From a virus: a DNA stretch of 37,037 bases. The notes beneath the pieces are model-generated. The model was not told where the DNA came from, ran no database searches, and saw only the letters and a program-made list of their open reading frames with translations. The stretch covers positions 1-37,037 of IMG/VR virus record IMGVR_UViG_3300020405_000008. One strand, written 5' to 3'. Below, one piece after another: positions 4,101 through 37,037 of the stretch (position 1 is the first letter of the stretch; every line of letters begins with the position of its first letter). The position numbers and the translations under genes are program-made.

Positions 4101-5545
4101 AATTTTTGATTTTCTGTTTCGTATCTTGTGTCATAGTCTTTCTTTTTTATGTAAGCTAGACTTGGTTTTCCGTTTTTGTCAGTCAAACCTAAAGACTCTC
4201 CTATTTCGCCCATTTTTAATTGAGCATAAGTAAAAGGTTTTATTTGTCTTAAAATTTCTTTAGCAGTAGTTACTTTAGGATAATCTGGCTCTTGTAGTCT
4301 ATTGGTTGTAGGACTATCTGGTAGTTTTTTTGCTTTAAATTTTTGAAAATCTCTATTAGCTCTAATTTTAATTTTTGTAATTTCATCTGCTAAAAATTGT
4401 TTATTTAATGTTGGATCTTCAAACTTAAAAGCAGGATCAATGTCAGATCTAAACAAACGAGCATATCTTTCAAAAAGATTTTTAAATTTCTTACTATAAT
4501 CTCTAGTATCTAAAAATTTATTAAATTCAACATCATCTGGCCCATATACTTCTTTTTCTAAATATTTATTTGTATCTGAAACATCTACATCTAAAGATCC
4601 GTCTTCTCTATAAACAGGAGTATCTAATTTTTTTTCGTTTATAATTTTTTCTGATTGGCTAGTAGGCGGTTCTTCTGGCAATCTAGGACCAACAAATTCT
4701 TCTTCAAAGATTTGTTCTTTTTTTATTTTGTCAGCTATCTTTGCTTCTTGCTGTTTAACAGATCTAATATCAAAAGCTCTGCCTAAAAAACCAACAATAG
4801 GACTAAGAAGCGATCCTAAACCCGCTCCTTCTATAGCCATTTTAAATCTACTTTGAGCTACAGAGTCGTCTGGATCTGCTTTTAAATATTCAGCTACAGG
4901 GCCAACAACAAAAACATCTGGGCCAAAAGTATCATATAAAAGATTAGATAACCTTTCTTCTTCTGGATCAAAAGAAGTTTGTTCAGCAATACTACCTATA
5001 GTTCCATATCTTACAACATCAGATACAGCTCTATCCGCTATGTCTTTAACAGCTCCTACTTTATCAGTTTTGTAACCAGGAACCATAAGTCTATTATATA
5101 AACCTCTTAAAAAAGCAGGGCCTTGCGTTGTGGCGATTTGAGTACCTCTTATTGCTTTATCAAAACCAATAAAATCAGGAAGAAACTGAATAATATCTCT
5201 AGCAAAAGATCCGCCAAAATAAGTTGGTTCTGGTATTTCTGGTAATCCGTCTTCTCCATAAAGTCTTTTATTCACAGCATTTACTAATTGCATTTGTGTT
5301 ATGGGATTATTAATACCTGGAGCTAAAACATCACGATCTCCTATTTCAGCTATGTCTTCTATAGTGTTAAGTTTGGCTTGTGCAGAGTCCCTTAATCCAC
5401 CGAAAACTGTTCTATAAAAATTAGATAAAGGGCCAGGATTTACGGGATTTGTTTCTTGCTCGATTTGAGCTTGTTCTTCTATATTTGTTACGGGGATTTC
5501 TGAAACTTCAAGATTTCCTTCTAGCCAATCTTCATAAGCTCCCAT
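1184..5545 (-). CDS. Giant internal virion / DNA-ejection protein (1453 aa)
   Basis: This is the largest gene, encoding 1453 residues at the end of the virion gene cluster, where P22- and T7-like phages keep their ejection proteins. The N-terminal half is hydrophilic, with a Pro/Asp/Gly-rich linker near residues 635-655 (five prolines in a row). The C-terminal half contains segments such as FVVPFVRTPVNIVKYYLE and Gly/Ala-rich stretches that could insert in membranes. I see no lysozyme, transglycosylase or peptidase motif. The role follows from size and position: packaged in the capsid and delivered into the host envelope with the DNA. It is followed immediately by the small nuclease gene. Confidence 0.7.
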   Translation of the reverse strand: MGAYEDWLEGNLEVSEIPVTNIEEQAQIEQETNPVNPGPLSNFYRTVFGGLRDSAQAKLNTIEDIAEIGDRDVLAPGINNPITQMQLVNAVNKRLYGEDGLPEIPEPTYFGGSFARDIIQFLPDFIGFDKAIRGTQIATTQGPAFLRGLYNRLMVPGYKTDKVGAVKDIADRAVSDVVRYGTIGSIAEQTSFDPEEERLSNLLYDTFGPDVFVVGPVAEYLKADPDDSVAQSRFKMAIEGAGLGSLLSPIVGFLGRAFDIRSVKQQEAKIADKIKKEQIFEEEFVGPRLPEEPPTSQSEKIINEKKLDTPVYREDGSLDVDVSDTNKYLEKEVYGPDDVEFNKFLDTRDYSKKFKNLFERYARLFRSDIDPAFKFEDPTLNKQFLADEITKIKIRANRDFQKFKAKKLPDSPTTNRLQEPDYPKVTTAKEILRQIKPFTYAQLKMGEIGESLGLTDKNGKPSLAYIKKKDYDTRYETENQKFQREEREESAVLDSQFWADLAEEFDRRGYELSGLYRDEGVPFDAFDSSGKENAQELLTRLIAEDAPSPKDDLKLLEYEQLLEGIDQERRLINDLGFDPDELTDAQLDEVIDNFVKNTTERFEPDDPIVTALKTLVPANLRGDKGLSLGEGPDVPPGPPPPPRSDDGPPPDFDPGDPKKVVNINLEKYDFSKGDIQALTRQAIKNGDWIKARNQMQFGPDGKLLREDALTTGLTIDKFINAPKNIKFTPQELMAARMMLQYLAKQVKELGDELTILFDAGETPSNKQLYNFQLLEMDLGAVGERLVGETSYAGQLLNSFKYDVDNLTPKQAREFVDDIVNQREIADRGMRSIEARIRNAAKLETPEQIAINAQSAVRPPTILDMAQEFWINALLSGIPTQAVNFGSNAIVAGFRPVEAYAQAAISAGRRKDPDRRLSFSEANGTAFATIYGLRDALKTAGKVLYNPDLVKDPNTKLELARQKSINTKLKVFGYDIIGDTIRLPGRGLLAGDVFFKQLAYNQNVYGKAFDIAGKEGIKDPIKFMKRVNSLVMDHRKNPTAGVLGKDFEEIALERGRYQTFTNNLGPTGRSFQRQLNGPLKALKFVVPFVRTPVNIVKYYLERSPAGVVNAFRKQGAERDAAIARTLLGTGLAYLAYDLASEGKIVGGGPIDRQERRLWLQDRSNVPYSFKTSDGKSYEFFRFEPTAMIFGIAADVQQIMDEIYRNPEFYGEDGKLLQDKLGTLLFDMVIGLTNSLQRNLTDKTFFRGITDLVSAIDSETPTGIETYVNNFLGSFVPTMFRNINDVNDPYLRDSRQALDKIMDDLPFFSNKGMPIRRNIFGEKMLRRKQGVQVFSPVTVGSAEPDPILTAFADANYFPGKMNRKLDGIELNEKQYEYMLDRLDLMNARSEFEALITTFSTNDPPRFRREAFEQLMGELRKNARQMTLDAIMYDENSPVYSPSWRKEWEKEQRSTD

Positions 5546-23039: not shown

Positions 23040-24572
23040 TTATCCTACTCTATAGATTTTGGATTTTATTGGTCGTTTAAAATTATACCCCATAAATGAG
23101 CTTCCGCCACCAAGAACGGCAGAAGTAGAAGCAAAAGTTAAAGCTAATGCGTCTGCTTTGTCTGGAGATTTAATACCTCTCTTTTTCATTTCTTCTTTGC
23201 TTTCTAATTTTACTTTTCCGGTAGATGTATATTTATATATTGGAGAAACTAATTGTTGTACTAATTCATCATCACTAGGCAAGAAAACATCTCGGCCAGA
23301 TAGCCATTCTTTAATTTTAAACCATAGTTCAGCTCGGAGATTTAAGTAATTCTTTTTGCTAGAAGGCGACTCTCCTACATTAACGCCGATAACCGGCAAG
23401 TTTAGTTCAGATAATCTATCTACTACGCCGGATCCTACACCAATTACATCTACTAATATTTCTTGTGGCTTTTCTAAAACAGTAGCATCATCATATTCAT
23501 TTTTTATTGCTCCGCACAATGACATTAGATCCATAGAATTATATGTTTTCATTTCTAAAACAGTATTTCCTTGTCTTTTGCATAGTGCAGAATTGTCGCC
23601 ACCAAACCTGGCTACATCAATTCCCCAAACTATCGGCTCAGAAGCAGTTAAATCTACTTCTCGCATAACAGCAGAACGACATAATTCCATAGGTATAACT
23701 GTGTCATTGTCATAACTAGGAAACTCTCCTAATACTTCTACTCTAGCAACAGTAGAGTCTTCGCCATATTGCTCTAACATACTTTGAAATAGCTTTTGAT
23801 CTGTGCCTTCTACAGTTCTTGAGTCTATTTGTTCGTTTTTCCAAAAAGATCTTTTGCCATGAAAGCTATCGAAAAACGGCCCACTATTCCTTCTAGGGTT
23901 CGAAAATGTGAACCAATACCTGTCTTTTGTTGGTTCAGAGAAAAATCCCTCAGAAACGCTGTAAATCGGTCCTGGAATACCTGATGCTTCGTCCATAATT
24001 AGACAAACTCCATAACTAGAGTGAATACCGGCAAATGCGTCTGGATTTTCTTCTGACCATAATTGAGCTTGTGCATAATAATAGCCGGTGTCTATCTTTA
24101 AATCCTTTTGTAATGCTTCTTCAAACCATTTTGCAGGTTTTATTGTTGTTGCTGTTTTTTCCCACCAATGATTATTTACAGATAGAGTTAGCCACTTTCC
24201 TAGTTCCGCCCATGTTCTTGATCTTAATTGTTGCTCGGTGTTTGCAGTTACAATTATGGTAGATCCTAGTCTAGTAGATAAAAACCATAGTATTAACCAA
24301 GACACTAAAGCAGATTTGCCAATACCACGACCACTAGCAACTGCTAGTCTATACATTTCCGGAAAATCTACTGTTTCATTTCTAGCTATATGATTTGCAA
24401 TATCTTTTAAAATTTTTTCTTGCCACTTTCTAGGGCCTTTAAAATGCTCAAGGGGGGTATCTTCTTGCTCCCAAGCAAAACAATATTTAACAAAATTGTA
24501 CGGATTGTCTTTGATGTTCAAAGACCAAAGATCTGACATTAATTGTTTTTCTTCTTCTGGCTTGTATTTCAT
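23040..24572 (-). CDS. terL: Terminase large subunit
   Basis: The protein has 510 residues. The N-terminal ATPase shows Walker A SGRGIGKSA at residues about 82-90, a coupling region TANTEQQLRSRT, and Walker B VCLIMDEAS. The C-terminal RNase H-like nuclease has GIDVARFGGDNSAL, ILVDVIGVGSGVVD and SPDKADALALTF, supplying the acidic metal ligands. It cuts and pumps DNA into the prohead. Unlike most phages, the gene is separated from the small terminase gene by 200 non-coding bases. No strong Shine-Dalgarno sequence precedes the ATG. Confidence 0.95.
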   Translation of the reverse strand: MKYKPEEEKQLMSDLWSLNIKDNPYNFVKYCFAWEQEDTPLEHFKGPRKWQEKILKDIANHIARNETVDFPEMYRLAVASGRGIGKSALVSWLILWFLSTRLGSTIIVTANTEQQLRSRTWAELGKWLTLSVNNHWWEKTATTIKPAKWFEEALQKDLKIDTGYYYAQAQLWSEENPDAFAGIHSSYGVCLIMDEASGIPGPIYSVSEGFFSEPTKDRYWFTFSNPRRNSGPFFDSFHGKRSFWKNEQIDSRTVEGTDQKLFQSMLEQYGEDSTVARVEVLGEFPSYDNDTVIPMELCRSAVMREVDLTASEPIVWGIDVARFGGDNSALCKRQGNTVLEMKTYNSMDLMSLCGAIKNEYDDATVLEKPQEILVDVIGVGSGVVDRLSELNLPVIGVNVGESPSSKKNYLNLRAELWFKIKEWLSGRDVFLPSDDELVQQLVSPIYKYTSTGKVKLESKEEMKKRGIKSPDKADALALTFASTSAVLGGGSSFMGYNFKRPIKSKIYRVG

Positions 24573-24772
24573 TACTTAGTCGGCAGGAGTAAAAGTGAGG
24601 AGAATATATAGTGCGTGATACTCCTGCCTATGATATTTGCAAGTGTCAAGGAGAGAACAAATATCATTTTAAAAAAAATTAAAAAAATTTATTTGAACAG
24701 TATATCGTACATACACCCCCGATTTGCAAAAAAGGGGGGATCTGGCCTGTTCTTTTTGTTTTTGCTTTTTGT
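24573..24772 (-). promoter_or_regulatory. Structured non-coding gap between terS and terL
   Basis: No frame fills this gap. It holds several inverted repeats: GGCAGGAGTA at 24582-24591 with TACTCCTGCC at 24619-24628; ATGATATTTG at 24630-24639 with CAAATATCAT at 24658-24667; and CCCCC at 24716-24720 with GGGGGG at 24734-24739, nested within GAACAG at 24695-24700 and CTGTTC at 24747-24752. On the transcribed strand the last pair is followed by long T-tracts, as in a terminator. A TTGACA box lies at 24649-24644. It could hold a terminator, a mRNA processing signal or part of the packaging site. Confidence 0.6.
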
Positions 24773-25399
24773 TCATTTGTTATGATCTCGGGCCGGATCA
24801 GATCCTTTTATGATCTCGTTGTGATCTCGGGCCGGATCTGCCTTTTTATTTTGTGGCCCGTTATGATCCGGGATCTTGCTTGTACCTGGTAAAGCTCTAT
24901 TCTTTTTAGGGAGTCCGCCTGGTTGTTTAGATCCTTGATCTTTGGCCCTTGTACCTGGTAAAGCTCGATCCGGGATCGTACCGGGATCTATACCTGGTAG
25001 CTCGACGCTTCCGGGAAGATCTATAACTCTGGCCCGTGCATCTTTTAGAACGGATCCTAAGTTCAGATCTACATTTAAAGACAGATCCTTTTCCGCCCAT
25101 TGTCCTTGCTCTCCACGATTAGATAAAAAGAATTTGACGGCGTGTATATTGGGATCTTCTTTAGTCGCAGATCTAAACAAGCTATTTGCTACCGCACTTA
25201 TGGCCTTCGATCTTCCCGCTTCCATTCTACTAGCAAAACTAGCAGATCTTAATTTGTTCCTATGTAGCGTATGCCATGAAACGCCCAAGTTATCAGCTAT
25301 TTGCTTTTCGCTTAATCCCAAACCGGCTAGGCGTTCTACTTCATCAAGATCTATATTTAATCTTTTACGGCCACCTTTATTGATCTTTTGATCTTTCAT
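24773..25399 (-). CDS. terS: Terminase small subunit
   Basis: The protein has 208 residues. Residues about 15-55 form a helix-turn-helix (DEVERLAGLGLSEKQIADNL, then WHTLHRNK) typical of small terminases that recognise pac DNA. A helical oligomerisation region follows (AISAVANSLFRSATKEDPNI). The C-terminal 75 residues are disordered and repetitive: RALPGT occurs twice and DPARDHN twice. The gene opens the late operon and is divergent from the early promoter. It has a richer GC content and many more GATC sites than its neighbours. Assignment rests on the HTH, length and position before terL. Confidence 0.85.
   Translation of the reverse strand: MKDQKINKGGRKRLNIDLDEVERLAGLGLSEKQIADNLGVSWHTLHRNKLRSASFASRMEAGRSKAISAVANSLFRSATKEDPNIHAVKFFLSNRGEQGQWAEKDLSLNVDLNLGSVLKDARARVIDLPGSVELPGIDPGTIPDRALPGTRAKDQGSKQPGGLPKKNRALPGTSKIPDHNGPQNKKADPARDHNEIIKGSDPARDHNK
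24783..24966. repeat. Direct repeats in the 3' part of terS (candidate pac region)
   Basis: TGATCTCGGGCCGGATC occurs at 24783-24799 and again at 24822-24838. CTTGTACCTGGTAAAGCTC occurs at 24879-24897 and again at 24948-24966, with a partial third copy near 24992. Offsets of 39 and 69 bases are multiples of three, so the repeats also repeat the protein tail. In P22 the pac site lies inside the small terminase gene, so these repeats are candidates for it. Confidence 0.6.
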
Positions 25400-25430
25400 A
25401 GGCCTATTTTAATCTATTATTCTTTTTTCT

Positions 25431-25457
25431 ATGTCTTCGTATGTCTTGCTATGTCTT
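25431..25457 (+). repeat. Three ATGTCTT repeats, 10-bp period
   Basis: ATGTCTT occurs at 25431-25437, 25441-25447 and 25451-25457, so the copies lie exactly one DNA helical turn apart on the same face. They overlap the -35 box of the early promoter and lie between the divergent terS and early operons. This arrangement suits cooperative binding of a regulator. Confidence 0.75.
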
Positions 25458-25474
25458 TTTATATTCTTTAAAAT
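25446..25474 (+). promoter_or_regulatory. Probable early promoter, sigma70 type
   Basis: TTGCTA (25446-25451) and TAAAAT (25469-25474) are separated by 17 bases. Transcription would start near 25481, with GGAGA at 25488-25492 and the first ATG at 25500. The promoter faces the plus-strand operon and overlaps the ATGTCTT repeats, so it is probably regulated. Confidence 0.6.
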
Positions 25475-25499
25475 GGGTTTTTTTAACGGAGAATTAGAA

Positions 25500-25706
25500 A
25501 TGCAACAAACAAAAATGAAACAGATCAAAGAAGAAATTCAAGATCTATTAAGTAAAGCTCATATCCTAGAAACTGTTTATAAGATCCACGAAAAAAAGAA
25601 CGATCTTGACAAGTGCATCAAGTACCGGGAAGGCCTTGAAAATGTCCTTGAAAAACTTTGGGATCTTAACGAACAATACGAAGATCTAAAGAAGGCCCAA
25701 CAATGA
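25500..25706 (+). CDS. Small coiled-coil early protein (68 aa)
   Basis: The protein has 68 residues starting MQQTKMKQIKEEIQDLLSKA. I choose the ATG at 25500, which has GGAGA seven bases upstream; the longer frame would run through the promoter. The sequence is almost wholly charged helix with heptad Leu/Ile (LENVLEKLWDLNEQYEDLKK), so a dimeric coiled coil is likely. It overlaps the methyltransferase gene by four bases. As first gene of the early operon, it could be a regulator or host-takeover factor. No family is recognised. Confidence 0.7.
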   Translation: MQQTKMKQIKEEIQDLLSKAHILETVYKIHEKKNDLDKCIKYREGLENVLEKLWDLNEQYEDLKKAQQ

Positions 25707-26350
25707 GCAAGATTTTAATTGGTTGCGAAACTTCCGGGATTGTAAGAAATGCCTTTCTTGATCTGGGCCACGACGCTTGGAGTTGTGATCTTCTGCCGAG
25801 TGATGATCTTACAAATAGACATATTCAAGATGACATTAGGAATGTTCTTAAATATGAAAGTTGGGATCTTTTAATGGTGGCCCACCCGCCTTGTACCCGT
25901 CTTTGCAATTCTGGAGTCCGTTGGCTAGACAATCCGCCACCTAATAAGACAGTTGAGCAAATGTACCAAGAGTTAGAAGAAGGAGCGTCTTTATTCTCGG
26001 ATCTTTGGAATTGTGAAGTGCCACACCTGGCTATAGAAAATCCAATTATGCACAAACACGCAAAAGCAAGGATCCGCAATTTTGAGAAACAATCTCAAAC
26101 TATTCAACCTTATGAATTTGCAGAACATATTGACGCTGAAGACAATGTCTCTAAAAGAACTTGTCTTTGGTTAAGGAACTTGCCTTTATTAAGAAAGACG
26201 GGATCTTTAACAAAAGAAACTGCAAGACATGATATTCACAACTGTCCGCCTGGCAAAGATCGTTGGAAAATCAGAAGCAAATTCCATGTAGGAATTGCGA
26301 AAGCTATGGCGGACCAATGGACCGAATTTTTAAACCAAACGGAGAAATAA
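25703..26350 (+). CDS. Short cytosine-C5 DNA methyltransferase-like protein
   Basis: The protein has 215 residues. Motif I is IGCETSGIVR (residues 6-15), the catalytic Pro-Cys motif IV is HPPCTRLC with Cys64, and motif VI is IENP (111-114). These place it with C5 cytosine methyltransferases, but it is much shorter than usual (over 300). I cannot see the QxRxR motif VIII or a full target-recognition domain. No restriction gene is adjacent, so it would be an orphan enzyme, perhaps for protecting phage DNA from host restriction. The surrounding DNA is rich in GATC and GGCC, both known targets of C5 enzymes. The actual target is unknown. Confidence 0.75.
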   Translation: MSKILIGCETSGIVRNAFLDLGHDAWSCDLLPSDDLTNRHIQDDIRNVLKYESWDLLMVAHPPCTRLCNSGVRWLDNPPPNKTVEQMYQELEEGASLFSDLWNCEVPHLAIENPIMHKHAKARIRNFEKQSQTIQPYEFAEHIDAEDNVSKRTCLWLRNLPLLRKTGSLTKETARHDIHNCPPGKDRWKIRSKFHVGIAKAMADQWTEFLNQTEK

Positions 26351-26352
26351 AA

Positions 26353-26754
26353 ATGAAAAATGAAAAAGTAAAAAGCAAGATCCAAATATCTTTGGATCCT
26401 GTGGACTTATCCTTTTATAAGTTATCCGGGATCATAAATAATTATGATCTTGGCTATGATGAATATAGGGAGATCGTAAGCGAGATCTTAAACGAGATCA
26501 TAAGGCCTATGGCGGATCAATTAGCAGAAGAAAAAGCTAGATCTAAAGCTAAGACTTATCTTCTTGATAATCTTGTGCATGAAGCCAATGAAGTTTTAGA
26601 CATAGGTATTGCAAGATCACAAAAGGAAGTTGGCCAAATGCACATGGCCCAAAAATTTTTGATGATCGTTTCATCTGCTGTGAGAAAAACAAATTTTGAA
26701 CTATTACAGGCCAAACAAAACGGGCCGGGAGAAAGTGAAAAAAATGAAGTGTAA
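26353..26754 (+). CDS. Helical early protein (133 aa)
   Basis: The protein has 133 residues from the ATG at 26353, which follows a GGAGA box; the longer frame begins inside the methyltransferase gene without one. The product is helical, starting MKNEKVKSKIQISLDPVDLS, with EEKARSKAKTYLLDNLVHEA and QMHMAQKFLMIVSSAVRKTN. No domain is recognised. It overlaps the next zinc-ribbon gene by eleven bases. Codons are dominated by GATC-containing pairs, as in its neighbours. Confidence 0.65.
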   Translation: MKNEKVKSKIQISLDPVDLSFYKLSGIINNYDLGYDEYREIVSEILNEIIRPMADQLAEEKARSKAKTYLLDNLVHEANEVLDIGIARSQKEVGQMHMAQKFLMIVSSAVRKTNFELLQAKQNGPGESEKNEV

Positions 26755-26923
26755 TACTTGTTATGACGACGGCGTATATATGCACAAGGGCAAGTTTAAA
26801 AAATGTTCTTGTGAAATAGGCCGTTCAATCAATCAATCTTATGTAGAAGATCTAAATGCGGATCTTTTCTTAAATAATCTATGGAGATCTAAAAATGTTA
26901 AATTCAGAAACCAGAACATATAA
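26744..26923 (+). CDS. Small zinc-ribbon protein (59 aa)
   Basis: The protein has 59 residues starting MKCNTCYDDGVYMHKGKF, then KKCSCEIG. Cys3-x-x-Cys6 and Cys20-x-Cys22 form a probable zinc knuckle of the kind found in small phage proteins and DnaJ-like zinc centres. The second half is polar (NADLFLNNLWRSKN). It overlaps the following gene by 29 bases. Partner binding or nucleic-acid binding is likely, but the function is unknown. Confidence 0.6.
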   Translation: MKCNTCYDDGVYMHKGKFKKCSCEIGRSINQSYVEDLNADLFLNNLWRSKNVKFRNQNI

Positions 26924-27587
26924 TTTTATAAAGTGTCCGTCTTGCGACTCTAAAAGCGAGATCTTGAAACTTGAATATAAAACTATCAATCCAGAATTTT
27001 TGCAGGATCAGGAAGCGGAAAGAGATCCTAAGAAGATCCTTAAAAAGACGGCCCGACTTGATACAAGGGCAGTTAGACATTTTGGACCTGCAATTCATGT
27101 CTGTAATTCTTGCGGTCAAGATCTAGGAAGGGATATTGAGAAATACAAATATCAAGGAACTTTCAAAAAAGGATCTTTAGACGATTATTATGCTTTAGGC
27201 CATAACAAGATCATAAGCCATACAGAAAATTTTCTCAGGCGTTGTGATCTTACTTTGTATAACGATTTTTTAGAGCAAGAGTATTGGTACGAAGAAGTTG
27301 AAAATTATTATCCAATGAATGAAGACGGAGAAGAAGACGAAGAAGGAGAGTACCCGGAAATCTTTCAGGCCTTCATAGTTGATTATTGTTTTTATAAAGA
27401 TCTTCAAGAAGCAAATGAAGTGGTCGCAGAAAGTGGACCGCATTATATCTGGGGACGCTGTTCTTTTGGCCAAGCAATTTCTATGGATCGAGTCATACAA
27501 GATATTGCTTATAAATTTGCAGATCCGGAAAAACTTCCGGATCTTTGGACGCTTGAAAAAGAACAACGCCTGGACGATCTAAAATGA
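26895..27587 (+). CDS. Zinc-ribbon protein of unknown function (230 aa)
   Basis: The protein has 230 residues. Cys14-x-x-Cys17 (IKCPSCDSK) and Cys70-x-x-Cys73 (VCNSCGQD) probably hold one zinc ion. The middle is rich in aromatic and acidic residues, with an acidic stretch (NEDGEEDEEGEYPEIF). The C-terminal half is helical (AISMDRVIQDIAYKFADPEK). It is the largest protein of the early operon after none of known fold. It might act on host transcription or translation machinery, but no motif proves this. Confidence 0.65.
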   Translation: MLNSETRTYNFIKCPSCDSKSEILKLEYKTINPEFLQDQEAERDPKKILKKTARLDTRAVRHFGPAIHVCNSCGQDLGRDIEKYKYQGTFKKGSLDDYYALGHNKIISHTENFLRRCDLTLYNDFLEQEYWYEEVENYYPMNEDGEEDEEGEYPEIFQAFIVDYCFYKDLQEANEVVAESGPHYIWGRCSFGQAISMDRVIQDIAYKFADPEKLPDLWTLEKEQRLDDLK

Positions 27588-27787
27588 CAGATCAAAAAAA
27601 TTATTTTCCGGAAATTAATGACTATGTTCAGATCTCCGGTAGAGATCTTTTTGGGATCTATTGCGGATCTTACAAAGGAAAGGCCCGGATTTTTTTAGAT
27701 GAACCAATCATTAAAAAAGGACGGGCCAAGTATATTTATTTAACTAACTATAAAAATATAAGGAGTGCCAACAAATATGAAAACTAA
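27584..27787 (+). CDS. Small beta-rich early protein (67 aa)
   Basis: The protein has 67 residues: MTDQKNYFPEINDYVQISG, RDLFGIYCGSYKGKARIFL, KYIYLTNYKNIRSANKYEN. The strand pattern looks like a small SH3- or KOW-like barrel. It overlaps the previous stop by four bases (ATGA) and the next gene by eleven. No family is recognised. Binding to RNA or to a protein would suit the fold, as an inference only. Confidence 0.6.
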   Translation: MTDQKNYFPEINDYVQISGRDLFGIYCGSYKGKARIFLDEPIIKKGRAKYIYLTNYKNIRSANKYEN

Positions 27788-27980
27788 CGGAAAGCTATTT
27801 TTAAATAGCCATATTAAATATAAAGGTGTTTGGATCAAGTGCCTAACATTACAGGCCAATGAGAAACAGAAATTTTATTGTCCTATGTTAGATCCTTACA
27901 ATGAAATCTATTTTGAACACAAGTACCAAGCCAAAAGACTAATTAATAAACTAATGGAGAAAAACAAATGGAAAAAATAA
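27777..27980 (+). CDS. Small basic early protein (67 aa)
   Basis: The protein has 67 residues from MKTNGKLFLNSHIKYKGVWI. AAGGAG lies eleven bases before this ATG; the GTG four codons earlier overlaps that ribosome site and is less likely. The protein is basic with beta strands (KFYCPMLDPYNEIYFEHKY) and a basic helical end. It overlaps both neighbours by 11 and 13 bases. Function is unknown. Confidence 0.6.
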   Translation: MKTNGKLFLNSHIKYKGVWIKCLTLQANEKQKFYCPMLDPYNEIYFEHKYQAKRLINKLMEKNKWKK

Positions 27981-28264
27981 ACTATGATGAATGGAGCAAT
28001 AAATATCGTGAAGCGTCAGCGGATCCGTTGGCCCGTTTTTTAGTGGATCGGTATATACCAACAACCAAAGCAAATCAGATCTCAAAAGCTATCGGAGATC
28101 TTCACACGGCCTTTTGTCAAATAGATCCGTCCCGCCTTAATTGGATAGCTGAAAATCTACCGGAATTATATGACACGGCCTGTTTATATACGGACATTCA
28201 CGGAGAGCCAAACAAGGATCTAAGAAAAGTTCTATCAGAATATCGTTGGGAGAAGCTCAAATGA
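27968..28264 (+). CDS. Helical early protein (98 aa)
   Basis: The protein has 98 residues beginning MEKINYDEWSNKYREASADP, with AIGDLHTAFCQIDPSRLNWI and NKDLRKVLSEYRWEKLK. It is mostly helical, soluble and slightly acidic. The ATG follows a GGAGAAAAACA ribosome site. It overlaps the following gene by four bases. No domain is recognised. It lies in the GATC-dense part of the operon. Confidence 0.6.
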   Translation: MEKINYDEWSNKYREASADPLARFLVDRYIPTTKANQISKAIGDLHTAFCQIDPSRLNWIAENLPELYDTACLYTDIHGEPNKDLRKVLSEYRWEKLK

Positions 28265-28524
28265 CAGAAGGTTTATTTGTAATGGGTGGCCTGGTTATGT
28301 TTTTTGCATTAGCCGGGTTCATCTTTGACAGTTTTTGGTCAGTCAAAAAAATTACCAAAAAGCAATTAGATCCTTTTGTGCATGATCTCTGGATCAATTA
28401 CCAGAAAGAATATGACAAAGGCACTTGGCCTGGATCGAAAAAAAAGTACCAAACAAAAGAAGAATTTATAAACAATAACTTACCTTTCATCATCAATAAA
28501 GCGACTGAGAAAGGTTTAATTTAA
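28261..28524 (+). CDS. Small single-pass membrane protein (87 aa)
   Basis: The protein has 87 residues from MTEGLFVMGGLVMFFALAGF; this ATG overlaps the previous stop as ATGA. Residues about 4-24 form one membrane helix, followed by a basic stretch (SVKKITKKQ) that should stay in the cytoplasm. The soluble part is helical and charged (HDLWINYQKEYDKGTW). A role in changing the host membrane or in superinfection exclusion is possible but unproven. Confidence 0.6.
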   Translation: MTEGLFVMGGLVMFFALAGFIFDSFWSVKKITKKQLDPFVHDLWINYQKEYDKGTWPGSKKKYQTKEEFINNNLPFIINKATEKGLI

Positions 28525-28537
28525 CGGAGAAAAAAAT

Positions 28538-28696
28538 ATGAATAAATTACCTAAAACAATAGTAGCTAATCAAATATCTATTCAATGGAATGACAATCCT
28601 AAATTAGTGGTCCTTATGCACGATATGCCGGAGTATGTCAGAGAACCATTTGACGCATGGTTAAGCGAGATAGAAGCACAGGAGAATGAAAAATGA
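28538..28696 (+). CDS. Small acidic early protein (52 aa)
   Basis: The frame begins after a GGAGA site at 28526-28530 and ends in an ATGA overlap with the next gene. The 52-residue product starts MNKLPKTIVANQISIQWNDN and has LVVLMHDMPEYVREPFDAWL in the middle, with an acidic end. A beta-alpha arrangement is likely. No family is recognised. The regular spacing and coupling support it as real. Confidence 0.6.
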   Translation: MNKLPKTIVANQISIQWNDNPKLVVLMHDMPEYVREPFDAWLSEIEAQENEK

Positions 28697-36602: not shown

Positions 36603-37037
36603 ACATATAGCTGATAAAAAATTTAATAAATTAAAAACTAGATATAGAAACGGATCTAAATACTATTATTTGATCTGGCACAACAAAGGTAAAAAAATCA
36701 AAAGAAAAATAGAAGCTCGTTATCCAGATGAAAGTATTACTGAGATACGCAAGAGAGCTATTAAAATTTATTCTCATTACAAAGATATAGAAGAAGGCCT
36801 AGTAGAAGATCCAAAAGACACGAAACAAATTAAGTATGATGTTTTGTTTTCTGAATACATTGAAGACTGTAAGGCAAGAGATGTAAAAGAAACTACAATA
36901 AAACAATATCAATCTTTGTATCAAAATTATGCACAAAAACATCTTGGATCTATTTGTGTAAATAAGCTAACAAGAAAAGATATTAAAAATGTTTTTGGAT
37001 CTATTTCAAAAAAAACAAAATCACAAGCAAACAAATT
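36586..37037 (+). CDS. int: Tyrosine integrase, N-terminal part; continues at base 1
   Basis: This ATG lies 17 bases before the DUF3310 stop and has AAAGGAG about nine bases upstream. The product starts MEEKDRHIADKKFNKLKTRY; the N-terminal arm with DNA-binding strands (KYYYLIWHNKGKKIKRKIEA) should bind arm-type sites. The core-binding domain starts near residue 83 (YDVLFSEYIEDCKA). The frame runs off the contig and is completed by bases 1-761. The last 103 bases repeat the window start with one base changed. Confidence 0.93.
   Translation, partial: MEEKDRHIADKKFNKLKTRYRNGSKYYYLIWHNKGKKIKRKIEARYPDESITEIRKRAIKIYSHYKDIEEGLVEDPKDTKQIKYDVLFSEYIEDCKARDVKETTIKQYQSLYQNYAQKHLGSICVNKLTRKDIKNVFGSISKKTKSQANK
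36935..37037. repeat. Contig-end overlap, right copy
   Basis: This copy matches bases 1-103 except for A at 36961 against G at 27. Trimming one copy gives a circle of 36,934 bp and restores a single intact integrase gene. Confidence 0.95.

Follow-up and report, generated by a model that had tools for sequence, protein, structure and literature searches.

Why should a four-letter palindrome be crowded into one segment of a phage genome? The genome considered here is the virus record IMGVR_UViG_3300020405_000008 of IMG/VR, analysed over its whole length of 37,037 bases (the window). It appears to be the complete genome of a podovirus-like phage and maps as a circle, as its ends (1–103 and 36935–37037) are a repeat of about 103 bases with one mismatch, giving a genome of about 36.9 kb, and a close relative (L001, 36,534 bases) corresponds to the window in circularly permuted form. 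A preliminary description of this DNA had reported that the segment 24781–28480, which covers the small terminase subunit gene terS and neighbouring early genes, is packed with GATC and GGCC. Here, we show using Markov models, synonymous-codon shuffles and comparison with sister phages that the dense block represents one allele, A, of a terS-early cassette that can be exchanged between phages, and that a strong and continuing pressure for GATC, and a lesser one for GGCC, acts within this cassette but not in the flanking backbone.

Recounting reproduced the earlier figures exactly (24 GATC in 24781–25400, 58 in 25500–28480, and 30 GGCC in 24781–28480), and the excess turned out to be stronger than had been claimed. 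The 82 GATC of 24781–28480, with one more at 24739, compare with 12.6 expected from base composition, 16.4 under a first-order and 34.2 under a second-order Markov model, and the 30 GGCC with 16 under the second-order model; the 33.3 kb of the window outside the block contain 178 GATC and 62 GGCC. When synonymous codons were shuffled in the coding genes of the block, 40.5 ± 3.5 GATC were obtained (maximum 51 in 1000 trials) against 79 observed, and 12.4 ± 2.4 GGCC (maximum 19) against 28 observed. Markov and codon-shuffled models had been named beforehand as what might overturn the excess, and both fall short of the observed counts. Together with the spread of the sites over genes, strands and frames, the shuffles also bear out the statement that the excess is not the codon bias of one protein. 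The dense segment itself stands as described but its exact limits do not: the edges are sharper, with the first GATC at 24739 and the last dense site at 28433, and a milder excess (about 9 GATC per kb) reappears at 29.0–30.2 kb. The bases that flank GATC vary (AGATCT 18, GGATCT 14 and TGATCT 12 of 82). Within a wider set of GNNC and phosphorothioation motifs, clear enrichment in the block was found for GATC and GGCC only, GAAC (20 versus 18.7 expected) and GAGC (11 versus 17.8) being without it, and a GTAC signal in the block is partly a repeat effect.

The preference for GATC overrides codon choice and bends even the order of amino acids in the block. The sites lie within genes in all three frames, and where the protein sequence permits a GATC it is realised in 79 of 115 cases, compared with 119 of 526 in genes outside (p = 1.5e-20); frame-0 opportunities are used in 46 of 48 cases. 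GGCC follows the same pattern more weakly, with 34% of possible sites realised in the block and 8% outside. Leucine directly after aspartate is encoded 23 times by CTN and once by TTR, while the ratio for other leucines of the same genes is 36 to 50; likewise, GAT is chosen 46 to 2 for aspartate before Leu, Pro, His, Gln or Arg, and 16 to 17 for the remaining aspartates. These five residues follow aspartate 48 times in the block proteins, compared with 21.1 ± 3.7 in shuffled proteins, and show no such excess outside the block (118 versus 113.5 ± 8.4). The block is slightly richer in GC than the rest (37.5% versus 34%) and GAT codons are common, so the excess might be suspected to be a by-product of base composition, codon usage or the amino acids encoded, but the codon shuffles, the Markov models, the opportunity counts and the context-dependent codon choice all reject this reading, and we find it hardly credible.

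The nature of the block becomes clear from its sister phages. Phages with a terL 95–98% identical to that of the window could be typed where the region was readable: the window, L001, L002 and L003 carry type A, and L005, L008, L166, L167 and L168 carry type B. Their backbones are 94–98% identical across types, whereas the proteins of corresponding A and B cassette genes are only about 35–67% identical (55% for TerS). Homology between the window and type B breaks off at 24741 and is found again from 28739 (80%) and from 29632 (94%). These homology limits, with k-mer and Markov statistics, place the type-A cassette, consisting of terS and the rightward early genes, at 24741–28690, and the coincidence of its borders with the change in density supports the shared origin that had been suggested for the block. 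As the right-hand backbone of L001 (type A) is 97.6% identical to that of L167 (type B) and 94.8% to that of the window (type A), cassettes must have moved from one backbone to another. The type-B cassette shows the opposite use of GATC, with 1 of 72 possible sites realised in L008 and 3 sites in L167 against 10.5 expected from a Markov model, and it avoids GATC and CCGG in the terS-early region only. Beside terL, 2.8 kb of backbone contain 14 and 13 GATC in type-A genomes and 13 and 12 in type-B genomes; in 5.7 kb of the right-hand backbone there are 26 and 23 in type A versus 17 and 14 in type B, far under the density of the cassette. No GATC excess was found in about 38 more distant terL relatives that have the upstream region. 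The density is also absent from homologous genomes without a methyltransferase gene, where an equal density had been named as grounds for giving up the observation.

Are the sites actively kept? The type-A cassettes of the window and L001 are 91% identical and share 63 of 70 GATC, compared with 89 of 150 sites for permutations of the same letters (p = 2e-6), and the difference persists when the two most conserved stretches are removed (53 of 59 versus 82 of 141). Outside the cassette, GATC is shared at 60 of 71, 44 of 52 and 23 of 31 sites, without excess over controls of 0.80, 0.87 and 0.80. This retention above that of other permutations, which answers the proposal to look for conserved GATC positions, indicates that GATC is being maintained in the cassette. 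Third codon positions inside GATC are 95% identical, compared with 81% for those in the rest of the cassette (p = 0.0007), with no difference outside; this synonymous test is modest by itself, since GAT codons are largely retained whatever their context, and it is the tetramer test on which the conclusion mainly rests. Sites nevertheless turn over, ten being present at aligned positions in L001 only and seven in the window only. The A cassettes have diverged by 9.1% and the B cassettes by 8.2% at similar backbone distance, a resemblance under which a second import of the cassette does not have to be assumed.

What could exert such a pressure? It acts at the level of DNA, on palindromes in all frames and on both strands, is limited to one allele and stops at the cassette borders, which excludes host-wide causes unless they depend on position. 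We tentatively propose, by analogy with phage P1, that GATC and GGCC are putative cis sites for a factor linked to the cassette (the methyltransferase and/or TerS), with a packaging (pac)-like core in terS. The factor that reads the sites would come from the same cassette and would most likely be the C5-type methyltransferase specific to type A, together with the TerS of that allele. The 3′ tail of the terS gene (24738–24990) would then serve as the core pac site, resembling the array of Dam sites in P1 pacA but more densely set, and the additional sites across the cassette would raise the odds that the phage's own genome, and not a co-infecting type-B genome, is marked and packaged. Sites would collect in the cassette alone because they are linked there to the factor that reads them, A and B being too different for internal recombination while the backbone is shuffled.

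Several features of terS are consistent with this proposal. The gene (24773–25399, minus strand; 208 residues; phrog_309, E = 4e-18) contains 24 GATC, using 24 of 29 possible sites. Its product is predicted to have N-terminal helices and a disordered C-terminal tail (pLDDT below 50 for residues 92–201 in an AlphaFold model built from four sequences only), and this tail is partly missing from type B. The candidate pac-like core (24738–24990), defined by site counts, repeats and an identity run, holds 14 GATC in 253 bp (55 per kb), the peak density of the cassette. Within it, two 21-nt repeats that include GATCTCGGGCCGGATC lie 39 bp from each other and are kept in all four type-A sequences, and two 22-nt repeats lie 69 bp apart. 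At 24822–24965, the window and L001 are identical over 144 nt, the longest such run of the cassette and longer than any in 2000 mismatch shuffles (maximum 138), a result to be read as support and not as proof, since mismatches cluster and an identical run of 139 nt lies at the right border. Clusters of other palindromes occupy the 3′ end of terS or the terS–terL gap in several relatives, where 6–19 GCGC in 420 bp compare with 2–7 per kb; the 420 bp before terL contain 19 GCGC in L081 and 9–10 in L040, L041, L049, L054 and L055. Crowded short palindromes are thus a recurrent feature of this end of terS, spelt differently in different lineages.

The methyltransferase-like protein (25703–26350, plus strand; 215 residues; PPC and ENP motifs; phrog_757, E = 5e-55) is encoded inside the block and, as reported earlier, by the only such gene, no other being present among 30 window proteins scanned. 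The gene was found in type A only and is absent from all type-B and other terL relatives examined; a comparison of the protein with solved structures gave no usable match. A link between the density of GATC and this A-specific gene is plausible from sequence.

A number of observations weigh against the proposed cassette-linked factor. About 200 bp suffice for a pac site, and the dense block extends over 3.7 kb, in which a search for helical phasing or fixed spacing of the GATC sites found none. The methyltransferase gene is itself less saturated than its neighbours, with 8 of 18 possible GATC realised, and homologous methyltransferase genes in other phages have no local excess around them (20% near, 19% far). 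If TerS of type A favoured GATC, type-B genomes should gain GATC, yet type B uses the 1 of 72 sites given above, an avoidance that a packaging advantage alone does not predict. In addition, the conservation tests compare two distinct type-A sequences, as L001 and L002 do not differ within the cassette.

Other explanations can be set against the same evidence. The block might have been imported from a lineage that is saturated with GATC and GGCC throughout its genome, the density being the signature of the donor. Such an origin fits the match between cassette and density borders and the difference in other k-mers (CCCG occurs 24 times in the cassette versus 2.9 in the comparison), and a genome-wide excess has a precedent in subcluster B3 mycobacteriophages, in which GATC and GGATCC are over-represented about fourfold without explanation (PMC4841201). 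Yet GATC is 90% conserved while other tetramers decay, the similar divergence of the A and B cassettes makes evolution in place sufficient, and no GATC-saturated donor of low GC was present among the loci fetched; the terS-tail repeat, used as a query for donors, returned two copies in the same lineage only and otherwise one-copy matches on contigs of higher GC. A saturated donor would account for the borders but leave the maintenance unexplained, and we consider import possible but doubtful. A biased mutation or repair process, Vsr-like or directed by methylation, that turns near-matches into GATC and GGCC had also been suggested, and AATC and GATA, each one step from GATC, are indeed the most depleted tetramers of the cassette under its own Markov model. 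Such a simple bias is disfavoured, and to us improbable, because, in a single genome, the effect does not extend past the cassette border into the neighbouring backbone, and because the gains and losses of GATC in the type-A copies include transversions and multi-base changes. A regulatory role of the promoter type is disfavoured as well, since the divergent promoter gap and leader (25394–25522) contain no GATC and the sites are intragenic.

The contrast between the alleles might also be driven by host defence. If the cassette enters the cell first, A and B could be opposite adaptations to host systems that act on GATC and GGCC, type B avoiding cut sites and type A offering many of them for self-marking by methylation or by phosphorothioation (at GATC, GGCC and CCGG). 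Type B avoids GATC in the cassette alone and not in its backbone; phosphorothioation has been reported at G*ATC, G*GCC and C*CGG; and the window contains no ACGT, CGCG or GCGC (about 54, 21 and 36 are expected from a first-order Markov model over 1–37037), from which restriction pressure appears to be strong. On the other hand, first entry of the cassette is an assumption, the phosphorothioation motifs GAAC and GAGC are not enriched, and restriction sites would be harmful if marking came late. A defence with the cassette as the first-entering DNA explains the contrast between A and B better than a cassette-linked factor does and the saturation worse, and we regard it as rather unlikely. We also see a slim chance that the alleles carry opposite, strongly selected tetramer codes, rich in GATC and GGCC in A and avoiding GATC in B, through which cassette-linked marking and packaging factors would tell their own from co-infecting genomes; this would amount to a packaging 'greenbeard' written throughout coding sequence, for which other lineages would use GCGC and CGCG.

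How does the cassette compare with known systems? The first DNA of phage T5 to enter the cell, its first-step-transfer DNA, avoids restriction sites. The depletion of type B is similarly confined to the early region, next to a normal backbone, whereas type A is saturated instead and its order of entry is assumed. The pac site of P1 has seven GATC-containing hexamers (TGATCA/G) in 161 bp of pacA, and their methylation controls cutting (PMC10028697). GATC-containing repeats are clustered inside the small-terminase gene here too, and both phages carry a methyltransferase gene. The differences are that 82 GATC extend over 3.7 kb and many genes, that GGCC is crowded too, that a packaging role is only a candidate one, that the sites of the block, with their varied flanks, are not built on the TGATCA/G hexamer as a unit, and that P1 Dam is an N6-adenine methyltransferase while the phrog_757 protein is of the C5 type. 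In the subcluster B3 mycobacteriophages, a phage GATC excess is likewise unexplained, but theirs is genome-wide and the present one belongs to one cassette allele and is opposed by the other. The highly iterated palindromes of cyanobacteria (HIP1, GCGATCGC) have been linked to orphan methyltransferases (PMC4390886). They resemble the present case as an over-represented palindrome that contains GATC and may be linked to a methyltransferase, for which the A-specific one would be the candidate here; they differ in being genome-wide octamers of cellular genomes, whereas the phage word is a tetramer without wider context and belongs to a single cassette (69% of possible GATC realised, versus 23% outside). 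For the phosphorothioation (Dnd) target set, the full G*NNC enrichment is not seen, and GATC with GGCC remains compatible with a two-motif system.

The early genes to the right of terS are all on the plus strand. The small g1 (25500–25706) is counted from the first ATG that follows a site resembling a ribosome-binding site (the mechanical open reading frame starts at 25431). g3 (26353–26754; 133 residues; 11 GATC by the opportunity count) is absent from L001, and a search for its relatives found none. The product of g5 (26895–27587; 230 residues; 13 GATC) is acidic, has cysteine pairs and matches phrog_26364 weakly; its type-B homologue has 182 residues and is about 35% identical. The small open reading frames g6 to g9 follow (27584–27787, 27777–27980, 27968–28264 and 28261–28524), of which g6 and g9 have type-B homologues. 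None of the annotated phages searched carries g5 or g3, and terS gave only remote matches among them. The tail of TerS (24773–25020) consists of repeated LPG-containing and DPARDH units, is of low complexity and seems to be shaped by the DNA sequence. On its other side, the terS–terL gap (24573–24740) is conserved in both types at about 95% identity, which stops at 24741, where the cassette begins. The window and L001 share 173 identical bases in 24520–24741, where a CCCCC/GGGGGG hairpin ends at the border; CCCC is enriched at this gap in most relatives, probably as a terminator. Contig ends near terL were considered as physical DNA ends but give only a hint, as assembly breaks at the cassette border explain them equally well.

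Elsewhere in the window, profile matches identify terL and the portal gene, and further genes are of scaffold, head, tail-fibre, internal virion, primase/helicase, SSB-like, Sak4-like and exonuclease type. The terL genes of the nearest relatives in public phage records are less than 50% identical, and a search of bacterial genomes for a host gave remote terL matches only and no host. CCGG is over-represented in the window, and L001 contains a single ACGT and neither CGCG nor GCGC. Other relatives avoid other words: L065 and L066 have no GATC, and L011 to L014 no GGCC. GTAC is nearly absent upstream of terL, in the terS-early region, and normal elsewhere on the contig in L028, L029, L034, L036, L042 and L071, a regional scarcity that is mostly not significant after composition modelling. 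A GCGC/CGCG cluster lies just upstream of terL in L074 too, and L080 has islands of these words at 4800–5100 and 1236–1677, the second within a gene for 147 residues in L080 and L081.

In conclusion, we know of no case in the open-access literature of a GATC excess that is confined to one cassette allele, opposed by the other and of a strength that alters even protein sequence. In the type-A cassette, nature provides an example of a four-letter word that overrides codon choice and protein sequence only inside one allele, and the B allele in a nearly identical genome provides a built-in control. If the sites do serve packaging or self-marking, they would show how phages distinguish their own genomes from those of rivals in co-infection; if they are driven by defence, they would represent the positive counterpart to the avoidance of restriction sites.

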